A stretch of DNA of 64,000 nucleotides. Origin: Paractinoplanes polyasparticus (GTDB lineage: Bacteria > Actinomycetota > Actinomycetes > Mycobacteriales > Micromonosporaceae). The number at the start of each line of letters is the position of its first letter. The first letter of the stretch is position 1. Both the position numbers and the translations under genes were made by a program. The stretch is taken from positions 124,001 to 188,000 of the forward strand of contig NZ_JAHWFK010000024.1 in NCBI RefSeq assembly GCF_019710575.1, given 5' to 3'. This document shows, one piece after another, positions 11,800 to 64,000 of this stretch. The notes below the pieces were generated by a model, which saw nothing but the letters and a program-made list of their open reading frames with translations, made no database searches and was not told the DNA's origin.

Positions 11800-12078
11800 G
11801 ACTCACCCTCCCCCCGGGCCGACCAGTCGTTCTTCGGTCGGGGACCTTGCGCCCAGCCTTCCATCCGGCGGGGCTTGACCGCCAGTGGTGTGCGCTTCCG
11901 GACCTTAGCGATAAGCTTGACCACACAAACGCCGTAGGTGCGAAATATCCGACTCCGGCGGTAATGCCGTCACCAACTCGTCACGGTGTGTTACTGAGGC
12001 AGCTTGCGGCGCTTATGTCAAGCCGCAGAAACGCCCATCACAGGGCCTCTGAGCTGCACTAACAGTCACCGGCTGGGC
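11800..12078. other. Intergenic region upstream of carD
   Basis: Divergent upstream region between the thioredoxin-like gene and carD. It contains short palindromic stretches but no reading frame or RNA gene I can support. The part nearest carD holds the likely promoter, listed separately. Confidence 0.4.
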
Positions 12079-12107
12079 GGGACATAGCTGCCTGAGCGTG
12101 TTACCCT
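12079..12107 (+). promoter_or_regulatory. Candidate housekeeping promoter of carD
   Basis: GGGACA (12079-12084) and TACCCT (12102-12107) are spaced 17 bp and resemble actinobacterial -35/-10 boxes of the main sigma factor. A GAAAGGGG ribosome site (12117-12124) follows before ATG 12135. Pattern match only. Confidence 0.4.
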
Positions 12108-12134
12108 AGACACAGCGAAAGGGGCTTCGAACCT

Positions 12135-12620: not shown

Positions 12621-12646
12621 TCCATCCCGCCTCGGCGCAACAACAT

Positions 12647-13363: not shown

Positions 13364-13372
13364 CCTGACCTG

Positions 13373-13846
13373 GTGATCAACCACCGGGTCGGGATCGGGA
13401 CGGATGTGCACGCCTTCGAGGCGGGGCGGGCCTGCTGGGTGGCTGGGTTGGTCTGGCCCGGCGAGGTGGGGCTGGCCGGGCACTCGGACGCCGACGTTGC
13501 TGCGCACGCGGCCTGTGACGCGCTGTTCGGGGCGGCCGGGCTCGGTGACCTCGGCAGCAACTTCGGCACTTCGCGGCCGGAATGGGCGGGTGCGTCGGGT
13601 GTGGCGCTGCTGACCGAGACGGCGCGGCTCGTTCGGGCGGCGTCGTTCGAGATCGGCAACGTGTCGATCCAGGTGATCGGCAACCACCCCAAGATCGGCC
13701 GGCGGCGGGCCGAGGCCCAGGACGTGCTGTCGGCGGCGGTCGGGGCGCCGGTCACGGTTTCCGGCACCACGACCGACGGGCTCGGGCTCACCGGGCGCGG
13801 CGAGGGCCTGGCCGCGACGGCTATTGCCCTGATCGCCCGGGTCTGA
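13373..13846 (+). CDS. ispF: 2-C-methyl-D-erythritol 2,4-cyclodiphosphate synthase
   Basis: Fifth step of the MEP pathway, a trimeric zinc enzyme. Visible signatures are GIGTDVHAF (zinc ligands Asp and His near residues 10-12), [18 protein letters not shown] and the C-terminal [14 protein letters not shown]. The 157-residue length is normal. In mycobacteria cysS follows ispF directly; here the next cysS is about 36 kb downstream. Confidence 0.96.
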
Positions 13847-13913
13847 GCACGAAGCCGCGATCCGAGGCAAGCCCCGGACCGCGGCATTTCGTGGTACCGC
13901 CTACGCTCGAAGT

Positions 13914-49884: not shown

Positions 49885-51297
49885 GTGAGTTTGCGCTTGT
49901 ACGACACCGCGACCCGATCGGTCCGGGACTTCGTCCCGATGACGCCTGGCCAGGTCGGTATCTACCTGTGTGGGCTCACCGTGCAGTCCAGGCCACACAT
50001 CGGTCACCTGCGGTCCGCGGTGAACTACGACGTGCTGCGCCGCTGGCTGCTCCACACCAACTACGAGGTCACCTTCGTCCGCAACGTCACCGATGTCGAC
50101 GACAAGATCCTCGAGAAGTCGCACTCGACGGGCCGCCCGTTCTGGTCCATCGCGTACGAGAACAGGCTGGCCCTCGACGCCGACTACCGCGCGCTCAACG
50201 TGCTGCCGCCGACGTACGAGCCGCTCGCCACGGGCCACATCCCCGAGATGCACGAGCTGATCACCGAGCTGATCCGCACCGACCACGCCTACCCGGCGGC
50301 CGGCGGCACCGGCGACGTGTATTTCGACGTGCGTTCGTACGCGCAGTACGGCGCCCTGTCCGGCCAGAACCCCGACGACATGCGCCCGCCGAGCGACGGC
50401 GGCGAGCCCGACAAGCGCGACTACCGCGATTTCGCTCTGTGGAAGGGCGTCAAGGCCGACGAACCGGCCGATGCCTCGTGGCCGTCGCCGTGGGGTCAGG
50501 GCCGTCCGGGCTGGCACATCGAGTGCTCCGCGATGGCGCGCCGCTACCTCGGTGACGAGTTCGACATTCACGGCGGCGGGCTCGACCTCACGTTCCCCCA
50601 CCACGAGAACGAGATCGCCCAGTCCCGCTCGGCCGGGCTGCCGTTCGCCCGTCACTGGGTGCACCACGCGCTGCTCAACCTGGGCGAGGCCAAGATGAGC
50701 AAGTCGCTCGGCAACGTCATCGACCTCGCTTCCGTACGGGAACAGGGCATCCGCCCGGTCGAGCTGCGTTACTACCTGGGCACCCCGCACTACCGCTCCC
50801 GCATCGACTACTCCGACGAGTCGCTGCGCGAGGCGGCGGTGGCCTACCGCCGGATCGAGGGCTTCGTGCAGCGTGCCCTCGAGGTCGTCGGCCCCGGCCG
50901 CCCCAAGGACGTGCCGCCGGCGTTCGCCCAGGCCATGAACGACGACCTCAACACGTCGGCCGCGCTGGCAGTCGTCCACGACTGCATCCGCGAGGGCAAC
51001 ACCGCGCTCGCCGCCGGCGACGAGGCTGGCATCCGCGGCGCGCTGACCGCCGTCCGCGCGATGCTGGGCGTGCTCGGCCTCGACCCGCTCGACGGGATGT
51101 GGACCGGCGACGCGCCCCAGCACGACCTCAAGCCGGTGGTCGACTCGCTGGTCAAGCTCGCGCTCGAGCAGCGTACGCAGGCGCGGGCACGCAAGGACTG
51201 GGCGGCGGCCGACTCGGTCCGCGACCAGCTCAAGAACGCGGGAATTCAGGTGGAGGACACTCCGGCCGGGCCGCGCTGGACGGTAGGAGAGCACTGA
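49885..51297 (+). CDS. cysS: Cysteinyl-tRNA synthetase
   Basis: Class I synthetase, 470 residues. HIGH is PHIGH (38-41), the zinc-binding Cys/His set includes Cys29 and HIECSAMARR, and KMSKS is in AKMSKSLGN near residue 270. It attaches cysteine to tRNA-Cys in the cytoplasm. Its stop overlaps the rlmB start (TGATG), the conserved actinobacterial pair. Confidence 0.97.
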   Translation: MSLRLYDTATRSVRDFVPMTPGQVGIYLCGLTVQSRPHIGHLRSAVNYDVLRRWLLHTNYEVTFVRNVTDVDDKILEKSHSTGRPFWSIAYENRLALDADYRALNVLPPTYEPLATGHIPEMHELITELIRTDHAYPAAGGTGDVYFDVRSYAQYGALSGQNPDDMRPPSDGGEPDKRDYRDFALWKGVKADEPADASWPSPWGQGRPGWHIECSAMARRYLGDEFDIHGGGLDLTFPHHENEIAQSRSAGLPFARHWVHHALLNLGEAKMSKSLGNVIDLASVREQGIRPVELRYYLGTPHYRSRIDYSDESLREAAVAYRRIEGFVQRALEVVGPGRPKDVPPAFAQAMNDDLNTSAALAVVHDCIREGNTALAAGDEAGIRGALTAVRAMLGVLGLDPLDGMWTGDAPQHDLKPVVDSLVKLALEQRTQARARKDWAAADSVRDQLKNAGIQVEDTPAGPRWTVGEH

Positions 51298-52415
51298 TGC
51301 CAGGAAATTCGCGCAACGTGAGCAAGCGGACCGTGTCGAAGAAGGGTGCCCCCGCAGGCTCGGGCGGCAAGAACCGGTCGGGCCTCAAGGGCCGCGGCAA
51401 GACCCTCCCGGCCGACGAGCGTCCGTGGCACAAGGGCTACTCGGGCACCGAGAAGCTGCCCGACAAGACGGCCCGCAAGCAGGACAAGGAGCGCCGCGCG
51501 GCGGCCGCTGAGGGGCGTGCCCCCAAGGTCGGCGTCCCCGGCAGCAAGGACACCACCTGGGGCCGGGGCGGCGGCCGGGCGTACGGGAAGCAGGCCCCGC
51601 AGCGGGGCAAGGTCCCCGGCCGCGGCGGCCCGCGGGTCGCGCCGGGCCGGCGTTCCAACCCCACCAAAGAGGGCCCCGAGCTGCTGCTCGGCCGCAATCC
51701 TGTGGTCGAAGCGCTGCGCGCCGCGGTGCCGGCCACGGCCCTGTACGTGGCCCAGGGCATCGACATCGACGACCGGATCAACGAGATCATCCGCACCGCC
51801 GGCGACCGCGGCATCCCGATCCTCGAAATCGGGCGCAACGAGCTCGACCGGATGACCGGCGGCGTCCTGCACCAGGGCATCGGTCTGCAGGTTCCGCCGT
51901 TCGCGTACGAGAATTTCGACGACCTGGTCGCGGCCGCGCTCGAGCAGACCGCCCCGCTGCTGGTCGCGCTGGACGGCGTGACCGACCCTCGCAACGTCGG
52001 CGCGGTCATCCGCTCCGTCGCGGCCTTCGGCGGCCACGGCGTCTTCATGACCGAGCGCCGCGCCGCCGGCATCACCGCGACCGCCTGGCGCACCAGCGCC
52101 GGCGCGGCCGCCCGCGTGCCGGTCTCCCAGGTCGTCAACCTGACCCGCGCGATCAAGACGGCGCAGCAGGCCGGCTTCACCGCGATCGGGCTGGACGCCG
52201 ACGGCGAGACCGACCTCTACAACCTGGAAGCCGCGATCGGCCCGCTGCTGGTGGTCGTCGGCTCCGAGGGCCGCGGCCTGTCCCGCCTGGTCGGCGAGAC
52301 GTGCGACCTGCGAGTCAGCATCCCGATGGCCTCCGACGTCGAATCCCTCAACGCCAGCGTCGCCGCCGCGGTGACCCTGGCCGAGGTTTCCCGCCGCCGC
52401 ACGTACGGTCAGTGA
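51297..52415 (+). CDS. rlmB: SpoU/TrmH-family rRNA 2'-O-methyltransferase
   Basis: A basic, Gly/Lys/Arg-rich N-terminal extension of about 120 residues precedes the L30e-like substrate-binding domain (LLLGRNPVVEALRA) and the SPOUT domain with DGVTDPRNVGAVIRS, GSEGRGLS and the knot motif IPMASDVESLNASVAAAV. The family methylates 23S rRNA guanosine 2251 or a nearby ribose. The extension is common in actinobacterial orthologues and probably binds RNA. 372 residues. A strong terminator follows. Confidence 0.92.
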   Translation: MPGNSRNVSKRTVSKKGAPAGSGGKNRSGLKGRGKTLPADERPWHKGYSGTEKLPDKTARKQDKERRAAAAEGRAPKVGVPGSKDTTWGRGGGRAYGKQAPQRGKVPGRGGPRVAPGRRSNPTKEGPELLLGRNPVVEALRAAVPATALYVAQGIDIDDRINEIIRTAGDRGIPILEIGRNELDRMTGGVLHQGIGLQVPPFAYENFDDLVAAALEQTAPLLVALDGVTDPRNVGAVIRSVAAFGGHGVFMTERRAAGITATAWRTSAGAAARVPVSQVVNLTRAIKTAQQAGFTAIGLDADGETDLYNLEAAIGPLLVVVGSEGRGLSRLVGETCDLRVSIPMASDVESLNASVAAAVTLAEVSRRRTYGQ

Positions 52416-52422
52416 CATAGAG

Positions 52423-52450
52423 CCACCCGCCCGGGATCACGGGCGGGTGG
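52423..52450 (+). terminator. Rho-independent-type hairpin after rlmB
   Basis: CCACCCGCCCG/CGGGCGGGTGG, a perfect 11-bp stem with six-base loop, eight bases after the rlmB stop. No long U-run follows, as is normal in actinobacteria. Confidence 0.75.
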
Positions 52451-52802
52451 CCCCGTAAACGGAAAATCGCCGGCAGCCGCCCGTTGCCAGCAGCCGTAGC
52501 TGTTGCCCGCTCGTAAGGTGGTCGCCGGTTCGCTGAACGAGGCCATCGCCGCCGCCGGCGCCGGCAGCAGAACCAGCGTCACGACCGCCACATACAACTT
52601 GATCTTCATGTCCAGCCCAACGACGATCCCTCGATCGTGGTGCCGGTCAAGATCCCCTCGGTTGACCCGGCATGGAGCTGGTGGCCTGCGGGTTTGTCCC
52701 TCATGGGCGCTAGGTCTGCGCCGCTTCCGGTCCTGACTCACGTTCTGGCCGAGGCCGCCCCAAGCGCGGCGAGCACCTCGACGGGTGGTTACTGCTCCGG
52801 TG

Positions 52803-52901
52803 GCGGCGAGCGCTTTGACAGGTAGCTGGTTCATAGCGGCGAGCGCTTTGGTGGGCTGTTGCTTCATCGCGGCGAGCGCTTTGGTGGGCTGTTGCCTATC
52901 G
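52803..52901. repeat. 33-bp tandem repeat, three units
   Basis: Units 52803-52835, 52836-52868 and 52869-52901 all start GCGGCGAGCGCTTTG; the second and third are nearly identical, the first diverges in its second half. A minus-strand frame reads through it as an 11-residue repeat (QQPTKALAAMK), but nothing else about that frame looks coding. Confidence 0.75.
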
Positions 52902-52911
52902 GGCGAAGACC

Positions 52912-53108
52912 TTGGGGCGCTGCCCCAAACCCCGGCCATCGCTGCGGAGATCTCCCTGGCGATGGTTGCGGTGGGTGGGCTTGGGGATCTCGTTGCGACG
53001 GCGGCCGTAGCGAATCGCAAGGTGAGGGGAACCGCAACCACACCCCGGTTGCGGCTCCCCTCACCTCACGATGAGCCAAGGCCGCCGTCGCAACGAGATC
53101 CCCAAGCC
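52912..53108. repeat. Structured multi-hairpin element, copy 2 (inverted relative to copy 1)
   Basis: Small hairpins TTGGGGC/GCCCCAA (52912-52918/52922-52928) and CCATCGC/GCGATGG (52936-52942/52959-52965, enclosing the palindrome GGAGATCTCC) come first. A 29-bp perfect outer stem (52978-53006/53080-53108) then encloses a 19-bp inner stem with one mismatch (53021-53039/53047-53065). The reverse complement aligns with copy 1 along the whole element, including GCGAATCGCAAGG and CTCACGATGAGC between the stems. Confidence 0.8.
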
Positions 53109-53485
53109 AGTGGGCGCTATGGGCGAAAAGACCCTGTTGAACACGCGCGGGTCGAGTCGCCTGATAGGGCGCGCTGCGTGCCGGGCAGTTCCGCCCTTGG
53201 CCGAGCCGCACCCGACACCGGGCCTTGCCCCCGCTCGCGCGACTATCAAGCGAGCCGGTACAGATCCGCGATTGCGTTTGCGGCGCAGGCCCGTCAGTTG
53301 GTTTGTTTCCCGCCCCAGTGGCAAGGCGGCGCAGCCGCCAAAGCCCCACCCCAGAGCCCGAAGGGCTTTCCAGCCCAGCCCCCAACCACCGCAGGCACCG
53401 TGACGTGGGGTCTGGGGGCTCGGCCCCCAGGAAGAAATGCGAGGAGGCACGTCCGCGCTTTCTGCGGACAGGAAGACCCCCGACG
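53109..53485. other. Gene-free stretch with further small hairpins
   Basis: No supported gene. It contains short perfect hairpins: GGCGGC/GCCGCC (53325-53339), AGCCC/GGGCT (53355-53367) and CTGGGGGC/GCCCCCAG (53412-53430). The last resembles the GGGGC hairpin of the two structured elements, preceded by the same GGTCT flank as copy 1, and may be a third, partial copy. Confidence 0.5.
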
Positions 53486-53527
53486 AGCCCCCGGTCGGGA
53501 TCGAACCGACGACCTCCCGTTTACAAG
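53486..53527 (-). mobile_element. Attachment-site scar: 3' part of tRNA-Thr(UGU)
   Basis: The minus strand reads as tRNA positions 32-73: anticodon loop CTTGTAA (anticodon TGT), the 3' side of the anticodon stem ACGGG, variable AGGTC, T arm GTCGG-TTCGATC-CCGAC, acceptor CGGGGGC and discriminator T. No D arm or 5' acceptor lies upstream, so this is not a gene. Tyrosine integrases commonly use exactly this segment. In this orientation the inserted element lies at higher coordinates, where base composition and gene content change. Confidence 0.7.
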
Positions 53528-53665
53528 AAGGAAGTCGATCATCCCGGATGGTCCCGCCCGGACCCTGATAGCGCCCATGACGTGCTGTTCGTTCCAGCTA
53601 TGTTCCGGCGCGTTCCAGGGCCGGGCGGATCGTTCCGTACGGTTACCTACCAAGGTCCCTACCAT

Positions 53666-53714
53666 GCCCGGTGCCCGGTGCCCGGTGCCCGGTGCCCGGT
53701 GCCCGGTGCCCGGT
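53666..53714. repeat. 7-bp tandem repeat (GCCCGGT), seven units
   Basis: Seven perfect head-to-tail GCCCGGT units in non-coding DNA between the att scar and hsdS. A length-variable microsatellite; no coding frame through it is credible. Confidence 0.85.
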
Positions 53715-53953
53715 GCCGACCGCTTCGATAGTGTGGTCGGGGGCCTCTTGGCCTCCTCCTGATCTACGGCACGCTAGGCACCGACTGCCGGTAGTCGTAG
53801 GCTTCGCCGCGCCCCATACCCAGCAGAAACGAAGACAGATGGCGGAGGCGGCCTTCGTCGACTGAGCACGCGAAGCGGTTGATGCGCCGCAACTCGTTCG
53901 CCTGCGCTTCGGCCGGTGCAAACTACACGGCGTGGAGGGGGTGTGCTGGCGCA

Positions 53954-53979
53954 TTGATCTTGGGATAGCCCGTTACTGT
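53954..53979 (+). promoter_or_regulatory. Possible promoter of the hsdS operon
   Basis: TTGATC (53954-53959) and TACTGT (53974-53979) precede the GTG at 53987. The 14-bp spacing is short, and no ribosome site lies before the GTG, so a leaderless message starting at or near the GTG is likely. Pattern match only. Confidence 0.3.
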
Positions 53980-53986
53980 ACCTAAC

Positions 53987-55651
53987 GTGTCCGCAGATCA
54001 AGACGCACTTCCGGCCGGGTGGGTCCGAGTAGCGCTCAGCCGGGTGGGTTCTATCCGGGCTGGAAGGCAACGCTCCCCAGATAGGCAAAGCGGACTATTC
54101 TCAACAAAGTATCTCAGAGCCGCTAATATTGCGCCAGGCGGGCTCGATCTTTCAGACGTGCTCGAGATGGATTTCACGCCGCACGAGCGGGCGGTGTACG
54201 GACTCCAGCGTGGGGATGTAGTCCTGACGGAGGCCTCGGGAAGCGCGGCGCATGTGGGAAGAGCCGCCCTTTGGGAGCAACAGATCCCGGAATGCTGTTT
54301 TCAGAACACCGTTATTCGCTTCCGCCCTCATGCGGTTGCCCCTCGCTTTGCCCTCATGTGGTTCGAGTACAACAGCGTGAGCGGTATTTTTGGCCGGCTA
54401 GCACGTGGTGTCGGGATTTTGCATCTGGGCGCGATCCGACTGTCCTCCCTTTCCATTGCAGTACCCCCTTTTTCAGAACAAGAGCGTATCGCAGCGGAGG
54501 TAGATCGGCGTCGGACCGAGCTTCGTAAGGCCGAGACAGCGCTACGAAGTGCTCAGGAGCGGATCGCAGAGCAACGACGCGAGATCCTTCGCTTGGCGGT
54601 TGGCGGACAGCTCCTTTCCGGTGCCGAAGACAGCAAGTCAGAAAGCTCCGCCCACGTTGCTGGCGCTCCGTCTAACGGTTGGCGCTGGGTCAGAGTAGAC
54701 GAGGCCGGGTACGTAGACCTGGGGAAGAAGCGCGAGCCTACCAGCCATCATGGCCCTAATATGCGGCCATATCTCCGCGTTGCTAACGTTCACGAAGACT
54801 ACATCGATACCACCGACGTCAAGGAAATGAACTTCTCTCCCGACGAGTTTGATAAGCTCTCGCTTCAGATTGGCGACGTGCTTTTGAACGAGGGACAGAG
54901 TCCTGAACTTGTCGGTCGGCCCGCAATGTATCGGGGTGATCCTAGTGATGCGTGCTTCCAAATGACACTTCTCCGATTCAGAGCCAACTTAGATGTGTTG
55001 CCGGAGTTCGCGCTCATTGTTTTTAGACATTATCTCCACGCTGGCGAGTTTCGTAGAGTAGCTCAGGGCTCCACAAATATCGTCCATCTTTCTCGGAAAC
55101 GCTTATCCGCGATGCAGTTTCCGGTTCCGCCGCTACCGGAGCAACACCAAATTGTGGCGGAGTTCAAGACCAGGATGGAAAGTCTGAGAGTCCAGGAAGA
55201 ACTTATCGCAAGTTCCTTGGCCCGGATTCCCGACATGTTGAAGGAAGTGTTGACAGCCGCGGTGAGAGGGAAACTGCTTCCGCAAAGTCCCGACGATGAG
55301 CCAGCGGCGAACCTCTTAGATCGGCTCGGCGAGCCTCCTAAAGCGGCAGTTCCACCGGCTGAGCAGTCGACGCAAACCGAAACTCAATCAGCGGAGGAGA
55401 AAGTGGATACGAGGGCAACGGAAAGCGAAGGTCAGTCAGCATCTTCGGCCATTGTCGGCGCCCTTGAAGACGCTGAGGGTCCAATGCCACTTTCGGAGTT
55501 ATTCACGAAGGCGGGGTACAGTCGCGACTCTATCGCCGACGTGGAGACCTTTTACCTCGGGGTCAGAGAGGCCTATGGTTCCGCCGTCACGGCCGCAGAC
55601 GATCGACCGGAGAACACCGCCCTGAGGATGATCGACGATGCGCCTCAATAA
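53987..55651 (+). CDS. hsdS: Type I restriction-modification specificity subunit HsdS
   Basis: The 554-residue protein has two target-recognition domains (about residues 10-170 and 230-400), each followed by a helical spacer (LRKAETALRSAQERIAEQRREI, then the segment ending VRGKLLPQ), the standard two-half layout that reads a split DNA sequence. Phrases such as VPPFSEQERIAAEVD and VPPLPEQHQIVAEF are typical. After a charged linker there is a C-terminal extension (residues ~480-554, LEDAEGPMPLSELFTKAGY...) of winged-helix appearance, found only in some S subunits. GTG start without a ribosome site. It overlaps the next gene by 14 bp. No HsdR gene is near. Confidence 0.93.
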   Translation: MSADQDALPAGWVRVALSRVGSIRAGRQRSPDRQSGLFSTKYLRAANIAPGGLDLSDVLEMDFTPHERAVYGLQRGDVVLTEASGSAAHVGRAALWEQQIPECCFQNTVIRFRPHAVAPRFALMWFEYNSVSGIFGRLARGVGILHLGAIRLSSLSIAVPPFSEQERIAAEVDRRRTELRKAETALRSAQERIAEQRREILRLAVGGQLLSGAEDSKSESSAHVAGAPSNGWRWVRVDEAGYVDLGKKREPTSHHGPNMRPYLRVANVHEDYIDTTDVKEMNFSPDEFDKLSLQIGDVLLNEGQSPELVGRPAMYRGDPSDACFQMTLLRFRANLDVLPEFALIVFRHYLHAGEFRRVAQGSTNIVHLSRKRLSAMQFPVPPLPEQHQIVAEFKTRMESLRVQEELIASSLARIPDMLKEVLTAAVRGKLLPQSPDDEPAANLLDRLGEPPKAAVPPAEQSTQTETQSAEEKVDTRATESEGQSASSAIVGALEDAEGPMPLSELFTKAGYSRDSIADVETFYLGVREAYGSAVTAADDRPENTALRMIDDAPQ

Positions 55652-57290
55652 GCTGCATATTGGAGACTTCAAAAACCTTCGCGACTTCGAGGTCATGTTT
55701 GACGAGGTTTCGCCGTACACGGTGCTGGTTGGCGAGAATGGTGCGGGTAAGTCCAACTTACTGGAGGCCATAACTTTAATCTTTCGGAACTTGGACCTCG
55801 ATATCGAAGCTCCCTTCGCGTATCAACTCTGGTACGAATGCCGCGGTACGCAGCTGAGAGTTGATGCGGAGGCAAATCGTATTCCGAAGTTCAGCATCCT
55901 TCGCGGCCCGACTTTAACTGATCCCGACGGCGTATACGAGGAGCTGCCTCGCCGGCGGTTCATGGAGAATGCGTCGGATGGGGCCCCAAAATATCGACCG
56001 GCATTTGTTTTCGGTTACTATTCTGGGCCTAGTGATCGGCTTTCGTCTCTTTACGAGAAGCATCGAGAACGATACTACAATTTCATCATCAAGGCGCGTG
56101 AGCAACGTACGCGGGCGCTCACAGACCCGAACGCACTGCGGCGCCTATTCTATGCTGAAAACCTTCATGGGCAATTTGCGCTCATCGCTTTTTTCATGGA
56201 TTCAACAGAGAGTGCCCGTAGTGACAGAGAGTTCCTGAGGGAATTCCTGCAGATCGAGGGTTTGGACAGTGTTCTTTTCGCCTTGAAGCGGCCACCTTGG
56301 CGTCGCAAAGGTGGGGACCAACGCTTCTGGAACGCCGTCGGTGAGGTACGCGACTTTTTAAGCAATCTCTATGAAACTGCGCTGCTGCCCCTCAGGATGG
56401 AGCGCCGCATCTCGGTGGATCTCACTAAAAATCCGTCGGTCGAGAGTTTGTACCTCTTCTTACCCTCCGCCGTTTCGCTGGAAGCTGTCTATCAGAAGTA
56501 TGCAAACCAATATGCGTTCTTCTCGGCGCTCGAAAGCACCCATCTCTCAAAGCTACTTGCAGAAGTAAGAACCCGCATCAGGATGACCGCTGACGCTGGC
56601 GGGGGAGAAGTTACATACCGAGATTTGAGTGAGGGGGAGCAGCAACTTCTCTTGGTGCTCGGCCTTTTGAAGTTCACCGCACGCGCTGAGGCCTTGTTTC
56701 TGTTGGATGAACCGGATACGCATTTGAATCCGGCATGGAGTACGCAGTATCTCGACTTCCTCGATAGATTCATCGCTGACCGCGATTCTTGCCATATTCT
56801 GATGACCACCCATGACCCGCTCGTGTTCTCGCGGTTAACTCGGGCCCAAGTTCGTTTGTTCGGCCGGAACGATACTGGATGGGCGTGGGCGGACGAGCCG
56901 CTTAACGATCCTCGAGGAATGGGAATCCAGGCGATTTTGGCAAGTGACCTCTTTCGGCTTCGATCCGGTGGCCTTGACGCTGACACCCTTCGGTTGCTGG
57001 ACCAACAACATCAATTGTCGACTCGGGATGACTTAACGCCGGCCGAAGAGTCCCTACTTCGCCGCGTAACAGATGAGCTCAACGAGCTCGACTTCTGGAA
57101 AAGCGATCGCGATCCTGTCTATCAAGCATTCCTTCAAAGGTTTATCCCCGCGTGGACTGCCCGCAATCCGATGCGGGAGACGGATCTCAACGTTCAGCTA
57201 TCCTCCGCTCAGTTGGAGGCGCGTGAAGCGCTCGCTGCGGAAATTGCGGAGGAGATCGCCGCCGAGATGGCCGCCGAGAGGAGGATTTGA
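55638..57290 (+). CDS. ptuA: PtuA-like AAA/ABC-type ATPase of a Septu-like module
   Basis: The 550-residue ATPase of the RecF/OLD-like group has Walker A GENGAGKS (32-39), a long helical insertion, the ABC signature LSEGEQQ (330-336), Walker B FLLDEPD (354-360) and the H-loop TTHDP (390-394). The C-terminal ~90 residues are charged and helical. Directly followed by an HNH nuclease gene, it matches PtuA of the Septu anti-phage system, where the ATPase forms a complex with the nuclease PtuB. It starts inside hsdS (ATG 55638) and ends one base before the next ATG. GC is low (26 of 60 bases in 56041-56100). An unrelated RecF-like ATPase is possible but the gene pair argues against it. Confidence 0.85.
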   Translation: MRLNKLHIGDFKNLRDFEVMFDEVSPYTVLVGENGAGKSNLLEAITLIFRNLDLDIEAPFAYQLWYECRGTQLRVDAEANRIPKFSILRGPTLTDPDGVYEELPRRRFMENASDGAPKYRPAFVFGYYSGPSDRLSSLYEKHRERYYNFIIKAREQRTRALTDPNALRRLFYAENLHGQFALIAFFMDSTESARSDREFLREFLQIEGLDSVLFALKRPPWRRKGGDQRFWNAVGEVRDFLSNLYETALLPLRMERRISVDLTKNPSVESLYLFLPSAVSLEAVYQKYANQYAFFSALESTHLSKLLAEVRTRIRMTADAGGGEVTYRDLSEGEQQLLLVLGLLKFTARAEALFLLDEPDTHLNPAWSTQYLDFLDRFIADRDSCHILMTTHDPLVFSRLTRAQVRLFGRNDTGWAWADEPLNDPRGMGIQAILASDLFRLRSGGLDADTLRLLDQQHQLSTRDDLTPAEESLLRRVTDELNELDFWKSDRDPVYQAFLQRFIPAWTARNPMRETDLNVQLSSAQLEAREALAAEIAEEIAAEMAAERRI

Positions 57291-57291
57291 G

Positions 57292-58155
57292 ATGAGGTAC
57301 ATCGACTTGGACCTTCTTCTGGCTGATGCAGAGTCGCAATCTTTGATTATGTCAGCGGATGACGCGTTACAGAAGGTCCTGGATGAGCCTGATCCGGCAG
57401 AGCGTAAGAAGCTGATAGATGAGAACAGAGACAAGTGGGTTGCTTTTCGGGAACGTTTCCACGCGGTATTTGGACAGAAGTGCTGGTACACCGAGTCGGA
57501 GAATCCGGGAACCGACGAAGATGTTGACCACTATCGACCGAAGGGCCGTATCGCGGAGTCGCGAGCGCACGGCGGCTACTGGTGGGAAGCGCTAAGCTGG
57601 CGCAACTTTCGGTTGAGCTCCCATCGTGCGAACCGTATGCGCATCAATCCGGATACCGGTAGGACTCATGGTAAGGCGGACCATTTTCCGCTTCTTGATG
57701 AGGCGCATCGGTGGGCCGGGCCAGGATATATCTGCTGTGAAGCGCCAACGCTGTTGGATCCAACTGATCCAGAAGATCCGCCTCTGTTGACCTTCGACAC
57801 TAATGGCTACACCGCGCTGTCGACCGCCTATCGCAATGATCCTGTCGCACACCGCAAAGTGGAAGACAGCCGCATCTATCTACATCTGGATTGGCCTGCA
57901 TTCGTGGCGGCGCGCCGCCGTCTTTATACCTTGATCTATACGAAGATCGCGGATGGCGATCGAGCGGTCGCGCGGTTGGTTCATGAACCCGTTACCGCTA
58001 AAGAAACGCTAAAAGCTATAGCTCGGGACCTGATCCGGCTAACACGTGACGATCAACCATATTCCAGAGCCGCGCAGACTTATGTCTTACACTATCGCGA
58101 TCGCGATTGGGTCAAGCGAAACGTAGTTCCATATGTTCCAGGTGGTCTAAATTGA
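57292..58155 (+). CDS. ptuB: PtuB-like HNH endonuclease of a Septu-like module
   Basis: The 287-residue protein has the HNH-type motif set of the retron/Septu-associated TIGR02646-like family: CWYTES (64-69, metal Cys), DVDHYRPKG (77-85, catalytic His in DHYRPK) and WRNFRLSSHRAN (103-114, the Asn/His part). LLDPTDPEDPPLLTF follows. It is the predicted DNA- or tRNA-cutting effector, held in check by the PtuA partner. ATG is one base after the ptuA stop; its own stop overlaps the hsdM TTG start. Low GC like its neighbours. Confidence 0.85.
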   Translation: MRYIDLDLLLADAESQSLIMSADDALQKVLDEPDPAERKKLIDENRDKWVAFRERFHAVFGQKCWYTESENPGTDEDVDHYRPKGRIAESRAHGGYWWEALSWRNFRLSSHRANRMRINPDTGRTHGKADHFPLLDEAHRWAGPGYICCEAPTLLDPTDPEDPPLLTFDTNGYTALSTAYRNDPVAHRKVEDSRIYLHLDWPAFVAARRRLYTLIYTKIADGDRAVARLVHEPVTAKETLKAIARDLIRLTRDDQPYSRAAQTYVLHYRDRDWVKRNVVPYVPGGLN

Positions 58156-59606
58156 AAACTTCTGCTGCTAGTCTCGTTCGCCGCCTTTGGCAGTACTGCA
58201 ACGTCTTGCGGGACGATGGCTTGTCGTATCCTGACTACGTCGAGCAGCTCACCTATCTCCTCTTTCTGAAGATGGCTGACGAGCAACCGGACGGCTTTGT
58301 ACCCCCTCAATATTCCTGGCAGTCCTTTACGGGCCTTGATGCATCGGAAATGCAAGACCAGTATGATGCGACGCTAGCGGCGCTCGGCAAAATGGACGGG
58401 ATGCTCGGTCTCATTTTTCGTGACGCGAAAAATAAGATTCGTGATCCGGCTAAGCTTCGGCTCTTAGTGAATGATTTGATCGGCCAGCTGGAATGGAGTG
58501 GCCTTTCTTCGGACCTCAAGGGTGATGCGTACGAAGGGCTACTCGAAAAGAATGCCCGTGACACGAAGAGCGGCGCGGGTCAATACTTTACACCGAGGCC
58601 CTTGATTGATGCGATCGTCAAATGCGTTGACCCCAGGCCGGGTGAGGTCGTTTGCGATCCAGCCTGCGGGACCGCAGGGTTCCTGTTGTCGGCACATGCG
58701 CATATCAAAGAGGCCAATCCCGGTTTGACCAAGTCGCAGTTGGCTCACCTCAGGACAAGGGCGATCCACGGCGTCGAACTGGTGCAAGAAGTCGCGCGGC
58801 TTGCTGCGATGAACTTGTTGTTGCACGGCGTAGGTGGCCGGTCGGATAGCGAATTGCCGGTAACGTGTGCCGACAGCCTTGAGCGGATGCCCGATGCGTT
58901 GGTAGACGTCGTCCTTACAAATCCGCCTTTTGGTATAAAGGGAAGTGTCACGTACGGGTCCGATGAGGCTAAGCTGTATCGTGCTGGCGAGGACTTGCAG
59001 GTGGCTCGTCCCGACTTTTGGGTCCGGACAGCAAATAAGCAACTCAACTTTGTTCAGCACGTAGTATCGCTTCTTCGTCCCGGCGGCAGAGCGGTGGTTG
59101 TTCTGCCAGATAACGTTCTCTATGATGGCGGGCCAGCTGTCGCAATTCGTCGTCGCTTGCTTGAAGACTTCGACGTGCATACTCTCTTGCGGTTGCCAAC
59201 CGGTTTATTCTATGCTCAGGGCGTTAAAGCCAACGTCCTATTTTTCGATAAGCCAAAGCGTAAGATGACCAACTCTAGAAATCTGTGGGTATATGATTTG
59301 CGTTCCGATAACAGATTTTCTTTGAAAACCCGTCCAATCGGATTTGAAGATCTTGCAGATTTCGTTGAGTTGTACGGGGGACGGGAGAGGAAGCGCGACC
59401 TCTCCCGACAAACCACGCGCTGGCGTGCGTTCGACCTTCAGTCGCTTACAATGTCGGCTGACGCGTCGCTTGACCTTAAATGGCAAAGCGAAGTACAGGC
59501 GACGCCAGACCGCGGGGTAGGCCGGCTCGATGAGCTTTCGATGATGATCGAAGATGACCTAGAACGGGCCTTGGCGCACATTCGTAGTGCAGGCCGGGGA
59601 GAGTGA
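58152..59606 (+). CDS. hsdM: Type I restriction-modification N6-adenine methyltransferase HsdM
   Basis: The 484-residue protein has an N-terminal helical domain (LWQYCNVLRDDGLSYPDYVEQ), GQYFTPRPL, the SAM motif DPACGTAGF (169-177) and the catalytic NPPF (257-260), all as in type I M subunits. TTG 58152 was chosen; its TTGA overlaps the ptuB stop and gives the normal N-terminus. With HsdS it should form an adenine methyltransferase. The order S-PtuA-PtuB-M with no HsdR is unlike the usual R-M-S. Confidence 0.93.
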   Translation: MKTSAASLVRRLWQYCNVLRDDGLSYPDYVEQLTYLLFLKMADEQPDGFVPPQYSWQSFTGLDASEMQDQYDATLAALGKMDGMLGLIFRDAKNKIRDPAKLRLLVNDLIGQLEWSGLSSDLKGDAYEGLLEKNARDTKSGAGQYFTPRPLIDAIVKCVDPRPGEVVCDPACGTAGFLLSAHAHIKEANPGLTKSQLAHLRTRAIHGVELVQEVARLAAMNLLLHGVGGRSDSELPVTCADSLERMPDALVDVVLTNPPFGIKGSVTYGSDEAKLYRAGEDLQVARPDFWVRTANKQLNFVQHVVSLLRPGGRAVVVLPDNVLYDGGPAVAIRRRLLEDFDVHTLLRLPTGLFYAQGVKANVLFFDKPKRKMTNSRNLWVYDLRSDNRFSLKTRPIGFEDLADFVELYGGRERKRDLSRQTTRWRAFDLQSLTMSADASLDLKWQSEVQATPDRGVGRLDELSMMIEDDLERALAHIRSAGRGE

Positions 59607-59640
59607 CTTCATGCATGTGGAGGGATGACCTGGCGAGGAG

Positions 59641-59886
59641 ATGGTATGGCGAATCCAGGACCGGCTCGTGATCAACGTCGCCGCGATCAAGACTCCGGCG
59701 ACGGGCAGCTACGGGATGAAACACGTGGTTGAGGATGTACTCGGCGAGTACGTTGCTAATGGCGAACTCATCGCCGCCGCCCTGATGGCTGGTTATCCCA
59801 TGCGGTACGACGGCGGCCCGAGCGCTACGTTTGGGATGAGCCGTCGAGACGTGGAAACGGTCAGCAAGACGCGAGCTGCCGCCTAA
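59641..59886 (+). CDS. Small hypothetical protein, possibly truncated
   Basis: 81 residues; the core GSYGMKHVVEDVLGEYVANGELIAAALMAGYPM looks like a real, structured protein segment rather than a shadow. The end GMSRRDVETVSKTRAAA is basic. GAGGAG lies directly before the ATG, with too little spacing, so a later start or a 5'-truncated gene is possible. It stands alone between hsdM and a convergent kinase gene. No function assigned. Confidence 0.45.
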   Translation: MVWRIQDRLVINVAAIKTPATGSYGMKHVVEDVLGEYVANGELIAAALMAGYPMRYDGGPSATFGMSRRDVETVSKTRAAA

Positions 59887-59991
59887 CTGCTGTACACCGG
59901 ACGCACGGCACAATGGCTGCGTCCGCCAGCCCGGCCCCCGCCGTTGATCGTTGCGTGGGTGGGCGGGTTGGAAAGGTAGTTCTGACGCTGG

Positions 59992-60849
59992 TCACTTTCT
60001 CTGTTCGCGTTGTTGGGCAGCGCGGACTGTCCTGGTTAGTGAGTCAAGGTGCGAGCAGTGTTCGATTACCTGCTTGTCCAGGTCGCTGAGAGTTCCGTAG
60101 CCCTTAAGGAACGCGTGTTGGAGGTCTGGGCGATGGTGCCATGTGCGGGTAGCGAAGCGGACTAGGTCGCGGGCGGCAAGGTCGTACCGGGCGTGCTCGA
60201 AATCGATCGCGCAGATTCTGGGCGCCCCGGAGGTGCCCGCCCTGTGCTGTTGATCCCGAGGCCGCTGTTCCCGTGGGCTCGGTGTGACGCACAGCAGGTT
60301 GCGGGGCGTGTAGTCGAGGTGGCAGGGAACGGCTGGAATGGGACCGAGGGTGCTCAGGGCGCGCAGGTGGGCGTGGATCTCGGCGCGTCGTTTGGCGGGT
60401 AGGAGTGCCTTGGCCAGGGCGAGCCAGTGTTCGCCGCGTTCGGCCAGCCAGCCGGGTATGTCCTTCTCGGTGTCGGGAGGTGCGGCGTTGTGGAGGCGGT
60501 AGAGCAATTCGCCTGCTTGACGGTGCGCCTTAACCTCAGATCGGGAGGTGAGTTGCGTTTCGGCGAGGGGTCGGCCAGGTAGTGCGCTGATCACGATGGC
60601 GAGCGGTTGTTCGCTGATGGCCAGCAGGCGCGGTGCCTGATCGTTTAGTGCTGGTGCCCAGTAGCGGTAGGCGTATACCTCTTGTCGGTGGCGGTCGGGG
60701 CCGCGATGAAGCTTGATGATGACCTCGCCGACGGCGGTTATGGCCCGGAGGGCGACGGTGCCGTTGTGCCCGGCATGCACGGTGCTGGGCTCGGCGTGGG
60801 GGTCGACCAGCCGCCGGCATAGGGCGAGCAGGACGTCGACCTCGTTCAT
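59992..60849 (-). CDS. APH-fold (aminoglycoside phosphotransferase-like) kinase
   Basis: The 285-residue protein has the APH/choline-kinase fold. Key parts are the N-lobe lysine strand GEVIIKLHRG, the catalytic HLDYTPRNLL (H-x-D...N) and the Mg-binding IDFEHARYD. It probably phosphorylates a small molecule; resistance to an aminoglycoside is only one option. Its start overlaps the stop of the histidine phosphatase gene by four bases. Last gene of a minus-strand cluster of at least six. Confidence 0.8.
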   Translation of the reverse strand: MNEVDVLLALCRRLVDPHAEPSTVHAGHNGTVALRAITAVGEVIIKLHRGPDRHRQEVYAYRYWAPALNDQAPRLLAISEQPLAIVISALPGRPLAETQLTSRSEVKAHRQAGELLYRLHNAAPPDTEKDIPGWLAERGEHWLALAKALLPAKRRAEIHAHLRALSTLGPIPAVPCHLDYTPRNLLCVTPSPREQRPRDQQHRAGTSGAPRICAIDFEHARYDLAARDLVRFATRTWHHRPDLQHAFLKGYGTLSDLDKQVIEHCSHLDSLTRTVRAAQQREQRK

Positions 60850-61499
60850 CCCTGCGGGTTGGTGAGGTGGCGAATGTCGTTGTGGGCGGCCAGCATCCAG
60901 ACGCGTCGGTCGAACCGGTTGACGTGGTGCTGCCAGCGAGTGACGCCGGTATGGTCGGTGACGAACCCGAGCCCGAGACGGACTTCGAGAGGCAGTTGAA
61001 GAAGCAACACGTGCGCGGCTTCGATGGTCTCGCCGTGGGCGGCGATGAGGATGCGTCGCCCGGCATGCCGGGCGAGGATCTGCCGTAGGGCGGTGGTCGC
61101 CCGTTCGAGGTACTGGTTCCAGGTTTCGGAGCCGGTGGCGTACGGCCGGTCTGGGTCGTGTTGAGGTGGTCCCCCGAACGCGGTTTTGATCTCGTGCCAG
61201 GGGCGGCCATCGGCGTCGCCGTGGTCGGGGCCGCGTAGCGCGTCGACCACGGTGGCGGTGAGGGATAGGGCTTGGCCGATGATGTTTGCGGTGTCGCGCA
61301 CACGGCGGCGTGGTGTGCCGTAGAACGCTTCGAAGGGGTGCTCGGCGTGTTCGTCGGCGAGGCGTAGGGCGAGGCGGTGTGCCTGCTCGCGGCCTTGCGG
61401 GCTGAGGCCGGTGCAGCCGCGTTCACCGCCGACGGTGCCGGTGGCGTTGTTGTTTGCCTCGCCGTGTCGGGCGAGGACGAGTTCGGTGGTGATGGCCAT
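60846..61499 (-). CDS. Histidine phosphatase family protein
   Basis: The 217-residue protein has the RHG signature LARHGEANNN with the phosphorylated histidine, GLSPQGREQAHRLA, the second-half catalytic LIAAHGETIEAA, and lengths usual for phosphoglycerate-mutase-like phosphatases. Substrate unknown. It sits between two APH-type kinases, which suggests paired phosphorylation and dephosphorylation of one intermediate. Confidence 0.85.
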   Translation of the reverse strand: MAITTELVLARHGEANNNATGTVGGERGCTGLSPQGREQAHRLALRLADEHAEHPFEAFYGTPRRRVRDTANIIGQALSLTATVVDALRGPDHGDADGRPWHEIKTAFGGPPQHDPDRPYATGSETWNQYLERATTALRQILARHAGRRILIAAHGETIEAAHVLLLQLPLEVRLGLGFVTDHTGVTRWQHHVNRFDRRVWMLAAHNDIRHLTNPQG

Positions 61500-61511
61500 G
61501 GCAGGCGCTCC

Positions 61512-62228
61512 TTACCGGGGGCGGGTTTCCGGGGTTGTCCAGGGGCGCACGGTGGGCCAGGAGTGCTGGTAGCCGTTGCGGTGCAGGTATCGAGCGGTGA
61601 GCCGGTGGTGGACCTCGGCGTAGTCGGCGAGCTGCGCGGGCGTGCACGAGTCGGCGGGACCGCCGGCGCTCTCGACGCTTTGGGTGTAAGCGGCCTGGGT
61701 CTGCTCGATCTGCGTGCCGGAGAGCAGGCCGTAGGTCATGGCAGTGGAGACGACGAGCTTGGCCAGGTCGTAGCCGAACGGGGCCAGGGTGAGGTCGTCG
61801 AAGTCCACCAGTGCCGGCCCGGACGCGGTGAGGATGAAGTTGCGGACGTTGGCGTCCTTGTAGACGGCTGCTGGCAGGTGAGTGAAGGTCAAGCGAAGCT
61901 GGCTCAGGACGTGTCGGCGGTTGGCGCCGAAGTCCGGGATGGTGGTGCCGATGGTGGTGTCGAAGGGCCGGTCCAGGCGTGCGACGTGCAATTCCCGGGC
62001 GTAGGCGCTGCCGTGTAGTTTCCCGAGAGCGGCGGCCAGGTCGGGCAGGTCGTTTGGTTCGGGTGGGCGGCCGTCGAGCCGTTCGAGCAGCAGGTGTGTG
62101 GCGGTGCTGGGGTACTGGTGGGGTAACCGGACGCCGCTGTCGAGTTGTTGAAACCACCGCAGGTGTGCTTGGGCGGCGACGCCTCGAGCGGGGTCGGTGT
62201 AGCGCTTGACGACCACCGCCGGGCTCAT
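61512..62228 (-). CDS. Second APH-fold kinase
   Basis: ATG 62228, overlapping the methyltransferase stop, gives 238 residues starting MSPAVVVKRYTDP, with the N-lobe lysine in VVVKRY. The catalytic loop is VYKDANVRNFIL (D...N; the usual HxD histidine is replaced by YKD) and the metal loop is LVDFDDLTLAPFGYDLAKLV. The altered catalytic loop is a departure from classical APH and may reflect a different substrate. Confidence 0.75.
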   Translation of the reverse strand: MSPAVVVKRYTDPARGVAAQAHLRWFQQLDSGVRLPHQYPSTATHLLLERLDGRPPEPNDLPDLAAALGKLHGSAYARELHVARLDRPFDTTIGTTIPDFGANRRHVLSQLRLTFTHLPAAVYKDANVRNFILTASGPALVDFDDLTLAPFGYDLAKLVVSTAMTYGLLSGTQIEQTQAAYTQSVESAGGPADSCTPAQLADYAEVHHRLTARYLHRNGYQHSWPTVRPWTTPETRPR

Positions 62229-63067
62229 CGGCGCCTCGCTACCAGGTACGTCACGGTGGATGTTGCCGTGACTGCGCAATCTGGGAAGCGGTCGCGAAGG
62301 GCGGCGGCCAGAGCTTTCGAGTCCGCCGTCAGCTCGGGGCCGAGCTGGTACTTCGGACAGGTGGCCACATAGTCGGCAAGGTGGTCGGCGTCGGCGAATC
62401 GGAAGGTGTGCTGTTGATCGACCCGACGGTCCAGGACCAGCCCCGCCATGGTGAGAACGCTTTCCGCGTTGTCGGTGTGGAAGCTCTGGTAGAGGCTCGG
62501 TCGTTGGGGTACCCCGGGATCCAGGTCGGCGGTGGCGAGGGCGGTGTCGATCTCGTGGTAGCTGTTGGCCGACTTGGTGGTGACGATGATGGACCCACCG
62601 GGCGTGAGGCAGCGGGCGATCTCCGCGAGCGCCTGCTCGGGGTGGGCGGAGTGGTAGAGGCAGAACCCCGCGACGGCCAGGTCGATGTCGGCGACGATCC
62701 CGTGAAGCCGGTGAAAGTCGGCGGTGACGAGCAGCGCTTCGCGATTCTGGGCGCGTAATCGGTCGGCGACGACCGCCAGCAGGGCCGGGGACTGATCGAC
62801 GGCGACGATGGCCGCTGACGGGTATTGGCGGGCCAGCCCGACGGTGGTGGTGCCCCGCCCGCATCCGATGTCGGCTAGCCGGTCCGGGAACGGGTTGGTG
62901 GTTGCCGCCAAGGTCGTGATGGTGGTCGTGGCGTCCGCGCCGGTGGTCTTTGCTCGGTGCAGGGCGCGGGTGCGCTGGGCGAGGCGGTGCGCGGTGGCGT
63001 AGAGGGGGCCTCGGATGAGGGCGGGGTCGGTGAAGGGCGCGCGCGAGGTGGACAGGGTCGCCTCCAA
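62225..63067 (-). CDS. Class I SAM-dependent methyltransferase
   Basis: Motif I is LADIGCGRGTTT, followed by IVAVDQSP, DLAVAGFCLYH and CLTPGGSIIVTTKS, a complete methyltransferase core. The start is uncertain: the open frame runs to 63166 but would overlap the upstream kinase gene by 95 bp, so TTG 63067 (280 residues) is given as the better guess. Substrate unknown. Confidence 0.78.
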   Translation of the reverse strand: MEATLSTSRAPFTDPALIRGPLYATAHRLAQRTRALHRAKTTGADATTTITTLAATTNPFPDRLADIGCGRGTTTVGLARQYPSAAIVAVDQSPALLAVVADRLRAQNREALLVTADFHRLHGIVADIDLAVAGFCLYHSAHPEQALAEIARCLTPGGSIIVTTKSANSYHEIDTALATADLDPGVPQRPSLYQSFHTDNAESVLTMAGLVLDRRVDQQHTFRFADADHLADYVATCPKYQLGPELTADSKALAAALRDRFPDCAVTATSTVTYLVARRR

Positions 63068-63071
63068 GGGA

Positions 63072-63590
63072 TCACGGGCCAGGTTGGGCGGCGGTGTCGA
63101 GTTGGTGGAGGAACTGGTTGGCGCGCCTGCGGCTGGTGAATTGCAGGAAGCGCACGTGTCGGCCATGCTCGGCGAGCAGGTTGGTCACGCGCGGACGCAT
63201 GGTGCGCCGGTATCCGAGGATGTATTTCACGAAGGACCAGGTGATGCGGTCGTAGACGCCGTCGGCGTGCTGGCCGCCTCGGTAGCGCCATCGCCGTTGG
63301 GCGATGCCCCAGAGGCAGGTTCGGGCCGGTAGGTCGAGGAAGATCACCGTGTCGGCGCGGGCCAGCCGGATCGGCAGGGTGGACGCATAGTTGCCTTCGA
63401 TAAGCCACCGGTCGGCGGCGACGAGTTCGTGTTGCAGGGCGGCGAACTTGTCCTGCGGAAGGGTATTCCAGGCGTCGTCGTAGTACAGCGCGTCGAGGTT
63501 GGTGACGCTCAATCCGAGCCGGTCGGCGAGGCGGCGGGCGAGGACGGTTTTCCCGGAGCCGCCACAGCCGATGATGGCGATTCTGTTCAT
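63072..63590 (-). CDS. Small P-loop kinase (adenylate-kinase/FlaR-like)
   Basis: ATG 63590 gives MNRIAIIGCGGSGKTVLAR: a Walker A loop GCGGSGKT at residues 8-15. Lid and substrate regions include WLIEGNYASTLPIRL and DTVIFLDLPARTCLWGIAQRR, typical of the DNA-topology-modulation FlaR-like kinases of unknown substrate. 172 residues; ends four bases before the methyltransferase start. Confidence 0.8.
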   Translation of the reverse strand: MNRIAIIGCGGSGKTVLARRLADRLGLSVTNLDALYYDDAWNTLPQDKFAALQHELVAADRWLIEGNYASTLPIRLARADTVIFLDLPARTCLWGIAQRRWRYRGGQHADGVYDRITWSFVKYILGYRRTMRPRVTNLLAEHGRHVRFLQFTSRRRANQFLHQLDTAAQPGP

Positions 63591-63643
63591 GGGCGGTGAC
63601 GGTAATCCCCCACCGTTACGGGTGCGGGGCGGCAGGCCGGGCA

Positions 63644-64000
63644 TCAGCCGACCGGGCTACGGCGCAGGCCCGACAACTGCCAGTCGATGACGTCGAGCTG
63701 TTCGGAGAGGCGGAACGGGTCCAACCGCTGCAAGCAGGCCGTCAACAGCTCAGCATGGGCGTCCGTGCCGATGACGGTCAACAGCTCAGTGATCGTCCGT
63801 GCGGCGTCGGCACCATCGCTGACATGCAGCTCGGCTGGGGTGAAGCGGGCCGCATCGCGAATCGTGCTCGGCGTCAGCGGCAGGCAGCCGGCCAGGACTG
63901 CCTCGAACAGTCGCTGCGTCATGTGCCCGACGTGGGCGTACCGATCGGGCAGAAGCAGGATGGTGGACACTGAGCGGCGGTACAGGGAGTCGACCTGGGT
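63644..64000 (-). CDS. Glycosyltransferase-like protein, C-terminal part (cut by window edge)
   Basis: The frame is open from the window edge to a stop at 63644 (118 residues). HVGHMTQRLFEAVLAGCLPLTPS resembles the nucleotide-sugar-binding C-terminal region of CgeB/GT4-type glycosyltransferases (R-x-FE-x-x-x-x-G-x-x-P). The rest of the gene lies beyond the window. Same strand and close spacing suggest it is the upstream member of the kinase-phosphatase cluster. Confidence 0.6.
   Translation of the reverse strand, partial: TQVDSLYRRSVSTILLLPDRYAHVGHMTQRLFEAVLAGCLPLTPSTIRDAARFTPAELHVSDGADAARTITELLTVIGTDAHAELLTACLQRLDPFRLSEQLDVIDWQLSGLRRSPVG

Follow-up and report, generated by a model that had tools for sequence, protein, structure and literature searches.

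We analysed a 64,000-nucleotide stretch of the Paractinoplanes polyasparticus genome (contig NZ_JAHWFK010000024.1, positions 124,001 to 188,000; hereafter the window) and found that a tight operon of four genes at window positions 53987–59606, hsdS-ptuA-ptuB-hsdM, belongs to a conserved unit. This unit joins the specificity and methyltransferase subunits of a type I restriction-modification (R-M) system to a PtuA ATPase and a PtuB nuclease. Across its relatives the restriction subunit HsdR is dispensable, the HsdS protein carries an additional C-terminal winged-helix domain, and in the lineage of the window, where no assessable locus has an HsdR beside the cassette, the target recognition domains (TRDs) of HsdS show no exchange. 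We consider it about an even call that PtuAB is a conditional nuclease tethered to HsdMS, resembling the anticodon nuclease PrrC in its position and acting here as the sole effector after the loss of HsdR.

The gene order, coordinates and junctions given in a preliminary description of this DNA were all found to be correct, and the identities of the four products were established with PADLOC. The features of the operon are as follows.

53987–55651, + strand: hsdS, GTG start; PADLOC Specificity_I (9e-88), also recognised by Pfam and NCBIfam.
Approximately 54020–54466 and 54680–55129, + strand: the two TRDs of HsdS, which also has two helical regions and a C-terminal extension.
55439–55630, + strand: winged-helix-like domain at the C-terminus of HsdS, amino acids 485–548, placed by an AlphaFold2 model and a profile.
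55638–57290, + strand: ptuA, ABC-type ATPase, overlapping hsdS by 14 bp; PADLOC PDLC00293 (1e-166), matched over amino acids 1–544 of 550.
55731–55754, 56625–56645 and 56694–56714, + strand: Walker A, LSEGEQQ and Walker B region of ptuA, motifs that are invariant in the alignment.
57292–58155, + strand: ptuB, HNH-type nuclease, 1 bp after ptuA; PADLOC PDLC00330 (4e-64).
57529–57633, + strand: codons of H80, N105 and N114 of ptuB, invariant alignment columns.
58152–59606, + strand: hsdM, N6-adenine methyltransferase, TTG start, overlapping ptuB by 4 bp; PADLOC PDLC03026 (MTase_I; 7e-164).

Pfam recognises HsdS, the ATPase and HsdM (N6_Mtase, 2e-62, with the DPACGTAG and NPPF motifs intact) and gives no match for PtuB. 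Both relevant NCBIfam models stay below their cut-offs on the window, at 57 of 500 bits for the retron-Ec78 PtuA and 20 of 52 bits for the retron HNH family TIGR02646. The AlphaFold model of PtuB has a predicted local distance difference test score (pLDDT) of 95, and the first ten Protein Data Bank matches returned by Foldseek are all PtuB chains, nine from retron I-A and one from E. coli Septu, while the remaining 36 rows have a probability of 0.28 or less. The window PtuA is a remote relative of solved PtuA proteins, the top one scoring 43 bits. The AlphaFold2 model of HsdS (pLDDT 90.5) matches best the EcoKI M2S-Ocr model 2y7c (E 3e-19). As its two TRDs share 60 of 146 residues, the target of this HsdS may be near-symmetric.

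To place the operon among its relatives, genome contigs were scanned with a six-sequence PtuA alignment, and the best 80 by similarity of the 454 relatives found were combined with six plasmid loci (L006–L011) into a set of 86; as these were selected by similarity to the window PtuA, nothing follows for the other 374. HsdS (S), PtuA (A), PtuB (B) and HsdM (M) were all present in 80 of the 86 loci, some as split or partial open reading frames (ORFs), by profiles built from the set itself. Four of the six exceptions are cut by contig ends (L027, L060, L067 and L078), L011 has an M-S-ATPase arrangement without a PtuB match, and L064 holds PtuA and PtuB only. All four genes occur together in 75 of the genome loci, which span 16 named phyla, including one archaeal phylum, and many of which are from metagenome assemblies. 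With start codons chosen by script, the A–B gap was 30 bp or less in 78 of 79 loci and the S–A gap in 68 of 72. The same four genes were found in all six held-out viral contigs (L202–L207, of which L202 and L203 are identical; other peptide patterns were used) and in both held-out genomes of the same family (L196 and L197), a third match in the family, L195, being L033 again, for a held-out total of eight. Since linkage is conserved in so many relatives, the association is more than chance; it is not the random, occasional insertion of ptuAB that the preliminary description had weighed against its own reading. The four genes look like one unit, where an annotator would record a Septu pair next to an orphan methyltransferase.

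The catalytic motifs are largely kept throughout the set. The [ND]PP[FYW] motif was found in 81 of 81 long HsdM ORFs, and the 14 of 81 that do not fit the motif I pattern each have a DP..G variant. PtuB retains [DE]H.RPK in 81 of 84 sequences. In PtuA the DEP of the Walker B region is present in 86/86, the signature LS[ES]GE[QR] in 80/86 and the Walker A pattern in 83/86, the exceptions to the last being L037 and L044, which have variant letters, and L027, at a contig end. Carriage is sparse near the window: of 396 genomes sampled across the phylum, only the window's own was found to carry a window-type PtuA (E 1e-20), and of 150 sampled from the family 4 do, its own included, with 14 genomes of the same genus listed without it. 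PtuA-like genes of Rhizobium that fall outside the clade (L143–L145) have neither M nor S adjoining. Two loci show unusual architectures: the small Vibrio anguillarum plasmid of L142 (1–12218) has an R-M-S-A-B order, R denoting HsdR, with all genes in pieces, and L039 (5255–8720) has an RRXRR-HNH (IscB-like) ORF between HsdS and PtuA. A hidden fifth gene was sought and discarded, with no neighbouring family recurring in more than 3 of 15 clade loci examined (18 fetched), and so was a phage home, the phage collection giving no match that covers 80% of PtuA and one partial match.

The preliminary description had seen no HsdR gene in the window. This holds for the whole 10.7-Mb assembly (128 contigs, rated 100% complete), in which searches for HSDR_N, HSDR_N_2 and relatives of the HsdR linked to L028 found none, just outside the window or elsewhere; the sole N6_Mtase match in the assembly is the HsdM of this operon, with no second HsdM detected. 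For a census of the 86 PtuA loci we called HsdR long at 590 amino acids or more and required 3.5 kb on both flanks for a negative call. A long HsdR lies beside the cassette in 22 loci, a broken one in 3 and none in 40, with 21 undecidable; the 40 include L064, which lacks M and S, and L032, which has an HsdR-like gene about 4 kb away on the opposite strand. On the PtuA tree (quick search) HsdR switches state 14 times or more. The window falls in a clade of 19 rows (100 in the Shimodaira-Hasegawa-like approximate likelihood ratio test, SH-aLRT) with a uniform S-A-B-M order, and HsdR is missing from 12 of the 12 rows that can be assessed, the window counting as one; the other seven are not assessable. 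Decay is visible in the three broken loci: HsdR of L071 has been broken up by a transposase pair/insertion sequence (IS), and L050 and L081 retain HsdR fragments only, with M, S, A and B open in all three. HsdR is thus dispensable for the S-A-B-M unit. As it is present on several early branches, HsdR may well be ancestral, with repeated losses that include one at the base of the window clade, although the root of the tree is insecure. The earlier proposal that PtuAB replaces HsdR describes at most the end state of the window lineage; since 22 related loci hold both, PtuAB probably did not arise as an HsdR substitute.

An HsdR encoded elsewhere in the genome could in principle act in trans, with PtuAB as an add-on. 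An HSDR_N match is present somewhere in 27 of 39 carrier genomes searched (39 of the 80 fetched, L034 and L052–L091 lying outside this search), and a search of 28 carriers and the window's genome for relatives of the L028-linked HsdR found close ones elsewhere in the clade genomes of L017, L018 and L023 (the last partly), a weaker one in that of L020, and related HsdR genes in those of L072 and L085. PF04313 alone is not a sufficient census of HsdR, having missed the L018 protein that the search for relatives of the linked HsdR caught. Against action in trans, the window assembly has no HsdR by these searches, and five more clade genomes (L014, L016, L019, L021 and L026, some of them draft or metagenome assemblies) gave nothing for HSDR_N and, at E 1e-15, nothing related to the linked HsdR. 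We consider this explanation improbable.

The linked HsdS ORFs are mostly 500–660 amino acids long and continue beyond the normal HsdS end with a linker and a domain bearing a PLSPEELF...E.FY..LR-like motif, an extension at which the preliminary description had hinted. In the model of the window protein a low-confidence linker (amino acids 466–482) leads to helices at 485–496, 502–508 and 516–529 and strands at 534–536 and 545–548, and a search with the whole HsdS returned at rank 50 a histone H1x winged helix, aligned over 70 columns (range unspecified) with a probability of 1.00 but an E of 0.2. Of the 81 long HsdS ORFs, 75 matched a profile trained on 71 of these sequences; L065 did so at E 0.003 and the other 74 at 1e-3 or better. 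Counting split or cut pieces (L014, L015, L016, L039, L061 and L063), the extension is present in 81 of the 83 loci with any HsdS; in L039 the winged helix forms a separate overlapping frame (6897–7151). It was also found in 8/8 held-out loci. Controls lacked it: 0 of 16 HsdS from 20 HsdR-seeded loci of one phylum, none of which has PtuA or PtuB, and 0 of 10 HsdS ORFs, which lie in 9 of 10 loci picked as plasmid relatives of this HsdM, without PtuA or PtuB and 8 with HsdR, most of these proteins stopping about where the extension would begin. AAA_13 (PrrC/RloC) comparators were little informative because profiles recognised M, S and R in just one, L180, of the 18 loci retrieved together with their flanks; its HsdS has no extension. 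As far as tested, the winged helix is therefore a conserved domain specific to PtuAB loci, and it is a candidate docking module for PtuA.

We asked how the extension co-varies with its partners in 66 rows, all with a recognised extension and none with a short A or M; L010 and L011 were omitted too. Its rank correlation with PtuA was 0.54, and 0.36 given HsdM, a value that 0 of 300 permutations reached. The HsdS body correlated with PtuA at 0.22 given HsdM, and with HsdM at 0.66. This pattern is suggestive of a contact between the extension and PtuA but does not prove one.

Winged helices often bind DNA, and the A and B genes lie inside the operon; HsdS and HsdM could accordingly be regulators whose methylation or binding controls ptuAB expression, leaving PtuAB to work as a stand-alone Septu system. 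In a single overlapping operon, however, transcriptional control would affect S and M alike, and the TRDs and the methylase motif are conserved, so we give this possibility little credence.

TRD exchange, which diversifies specificity, is typical of type I R-M systems without strictly defining them. We compared TRDs in 66 rows, made up of the window plus 65 of the 80 loci from genome contigs, with 13 rows from the window clade. The plasmid loci L006–L011 were excluded, as was any row in which S, A or M was split, short or absent. Pairs were taken at 55–92% PtuA identity; 77 of the 78 clade pairs fall in this range, and pairs are not independent. Within the clade the median identities of TRD1 (64%) and TRD2 (55%) exceed those of the helical regions (46 and 45%), and exchanged or doubly unrelated TRDs occur in 0/77 pairs. 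At the same cut-offs in other lineages, both TRDs were unrelated or one was exchanged in 16/16 HsdR-bearing pairs, about 95% of 58 HsdR-less pairs and about 97% of 85 mixed pairs. The frozen TRDs of the HsdR-free clade are the strongest, and an unexpected, sign that its HsdMS may have a job other than restriction; they would fit a sensor outside the methylation arms race.

These data also bear on a true replacement of HsdR, in which HsdMS on an unmethylated target would recruit PtuA and PtuB would cut that DNA, making the locus an R-M system with a different nuclease. Such a system would agree with the lack of HsdR in all assessable window-clade operons and in the window assembly, with the universal retention of the NPP[FYW] motif by HsdM, and with the R-less Bacteroidota, which exchange TRDs as restriction systems do. 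The Septu system of E. coli ATCC25922 is moreover reported, in a passage of PMC11555353, to cut DNA. On the other side, the 22 loci that combine PtuAB with a long HsdR nearly always have the same HsdS extension, so that the original job was probably another one, and TRDs are frozen in the very clade that is free of HsdR, which is unusual for an evolving restriction system. We regard replacement as unlikely; DNA cutting at unmethylated sites is nonetheless a serious rival, mainly for the R-less Bacteroidota, where TRD2 exchange favours methylation-based discrimination (L072 and L085 hold HsdR elsewhere).

The closest precedent in position is PrrC (PrrC-EcoprrI, PrrC170), likewise a nuclease that is controlled by an ABC ATPase and lies within a type I operon. 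PrrC170 was cloned in the order HsdR-HsdS-PrrC-HsdM, as given in part of PMC11555353, and its slot is that of PtuAB in R-S-A-B-M loci. PrrC differs in being a single ABC-HEPN protein rather than two proteins with an HNH nuclease; the operon gives no Pfam AAA_13 match, lacks HsdR, and has the HsdS extension that the one AAA_13-linked HsdS found does not. Passages of PMC3874165, PMC3710099 and PMC12707154 describe PrrC as sequestered in the type I complex and freed by a T4 anti-restriction factor. The S-M slot appears to accept varied extra genes, since two HsdM relatives carry others there: a weakly HipA-C-like gene plus a HIRAN gene in L164 (6310–7909) and a GmrSD enzyme in L165 (6070–8001). 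On a Vibrio plasmid, L167 (6519–9479) has related HsdS and HsdM with neither HsdR nor PtuAB within a 17-kb stretch. More distant PtuA-like ATPases stand beside HsdM and HsdS in viral contigs L208–L210, with HsdR in L208 and L210, no PtuB match and the extension in 0/3 HsdS; ABC ATPases are nested in type I loci beyond this clade as well.

Septu shares with the window a PtuA homologue (PADLOC) and an adjacent PtuB HNH nuclease, but consists of two genes alone rather than four, and L064 is the only locus here that is clearly PtuAB alone. In that locus (6488–14433) kinase-TPR and FHA-kinase proteins, by Pfam, precede the pair, and the protein after PtuB looks NYN-like by eye, with no Pfam match; the kinase neighbours are possibly another sensor, a fourth PtuAB front end beside those of Septu, retrons and HsdMS. 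Retron I-A (Ec78/Eco7) likewise has a PtuA ATPase and a PtuB HNH nuclease, whose fold matches that of the window, whereas the window operon has HsdMS in place of a reverse transcriptase; an Rfam scan of 50000–64000 gave no match. The PtuAB of retron Eco7 is described in part of PMC11555353 as a toxin that degrades tRNA-Tyr and is neutralised by the reverse transcriptase with msr-msd, and a passage of PMC13096335 states that Septu EcB88 also cleaves tRNA-Tyr. Type I R-M systems share with the window HsdM and HsdS of type I families, including the EcoKI-like HsdS model, and differ from it in having HsdR, a nuclease of another family, and TRD exchange, absent from the clade. The AriA model of PARIS (AriA-AriB) matches the window PtuA (E 3e-24, 85 bits), but PtuA models reach 554 bits, the window has no Toprim AriB, and its operon contains methylase genes; a review places PARIS and PrrC together among the guardians that sense when R-M is inhibited (a passage of PMC12707154). 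MADS also brings methylase, HsdS-like and AAA ATPase genes together, but the window proteins fall far below the MAD2, MAD3 and MAD5 cut-offs (118/720, 29/400 and 40/420 bits). An ATPase-restriction cassette link is not unknown, since NCBI already has TIGR04435, the "restriction system-associated AAA family ATPase", on which the window PtuA scores 117 bits against a family cut-off of 300; the name is borne by the Priestia locus L011 (M-S-ATPase), where the profiles find neither PtuB nor the HsdS extension. Among the open-licence PubMed Central articles listed we found no description of HsdMS with PtuAB, in keeping with the earlier statement that no described S-PtuA-PtuB-M locus was known, and the passages of the PADLOC paper on Septu (PMC8565338) name retron and Hma associations, not HsdMS.

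From these parallels and the comparative sequences we infer how PtuAB might have come under the control of HsdMS and what might release it. The pair would have originated next to type I systems that were still complete, in the position that PrrC takes as well, and later losses of HsdR, one at the base of the window clade, would have left no effector but PtuAB and made HsdMS a sensor whose specificity is fixed. HsdM2S would methylate its site while holding PtuAB inactive, probably by contact of the HsdS winged helix with PtuA. Phage infection would disturb HsdMS, through an anti-restriction protein (a DNA mimic, for instance) or by engagement of foreign unmethylated DNA, and PtuAB would be released or activated; the HNH nuclease of PtuB would then cut an essential nucleic acid, stopping the infection. 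Candidate targets are tRNA, as for the PtuAB of retron Eco7 and Septu EcB88, or phage DNA. We prefer restraint by HsdMS with release on disturbance because of the PrrC and retron Eco7/Septu EcB88 parallels. The earlier suggestion that PtuAB is a back-up firing when the methyltransferase is inhibited fits the PrrC parallel better than replacement does, although no restriction activity is left in the window for it to back up. That the unit amounts to a class of defence in which an HsdR-less type I methyltransferase core is sensor and restraint for a PtuAB effector is a tentative proposal, to which we give somewhat less than an even chance.

Several observations weigh against HsdMS as the restraint. 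In L015 (305–2885) and L016 (7428–10008) HsdS is split by an IS4/5-family transposase with A, B and M open, which is awkward for a model in which restraint of a toxin needs HsdS to be intact; a polar effect of the IS could account for this, and the two splits are perhaps one event, PtuA being identical in both. L064 has a PtuAB of the clade without M or S, and the HsdS of L010 and L011 has no extension by profile. The extension also follows HsdM given PtuA (0.30), so that contact with PtuA is not singled out. Finally, some R-less Bacteroidota loci still exchange TRD2.

The operon is probably carried by an integrated element that begins at 53.5 kb and runs rightwards out of the window. This is proposed because of one feature upstream of the cassette and its counterpart on another contig:

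53485–53528, − strand: 44-bp exact copy of the 3′ half of tRNA-Thr(TGT), an attachment site-like left boundary about 460 bp upstream of the cassette.

A second copy lies on contig C47 (16894–16937), in an intact tRNA-Thr(TGT) gene that adjoins an ORF of the phage integrase family (L201:15425–16789, Pfam 2e-17); that C46 and C47 are neighbours is an assumption. PtuAB might then be unrelated cargo travelling with a solitary methyltransferase in a mobile island bounded by tRNA-Thr. The linkage of the four genes in 80 of 86 loci and across 16 phyla, their overlapping frames, and an HsdS domain seen so far only with PtuAB all speak against this, and we hold it to be very improbable.

If control of PtuAB by HsdMS is borne out, PtuAB would have at least three exchangeable front ends: none, as in Septu; a reverse transcriptase with its multicopy single-stranded DNA (msDNA), as in retrons; and HsdMS, joined through the winged-helix adaptor of HsdS. 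The HsdMS of the window clade would stand outside the restriction arms race, with one type of target kept across phyla, and may serve to bait anti-restriction proteins. In that case the oldest bacterial defence known would have a methylation core that can work without a restriction enzyme, sensing on behalf of a toxin-like nuclease, and the adaptor domain that makes this switch would be named. The winged helix of HsdS and the frozen TRDs would offer handles on the control of PtuAB, a question that these loci have in common with retrons.

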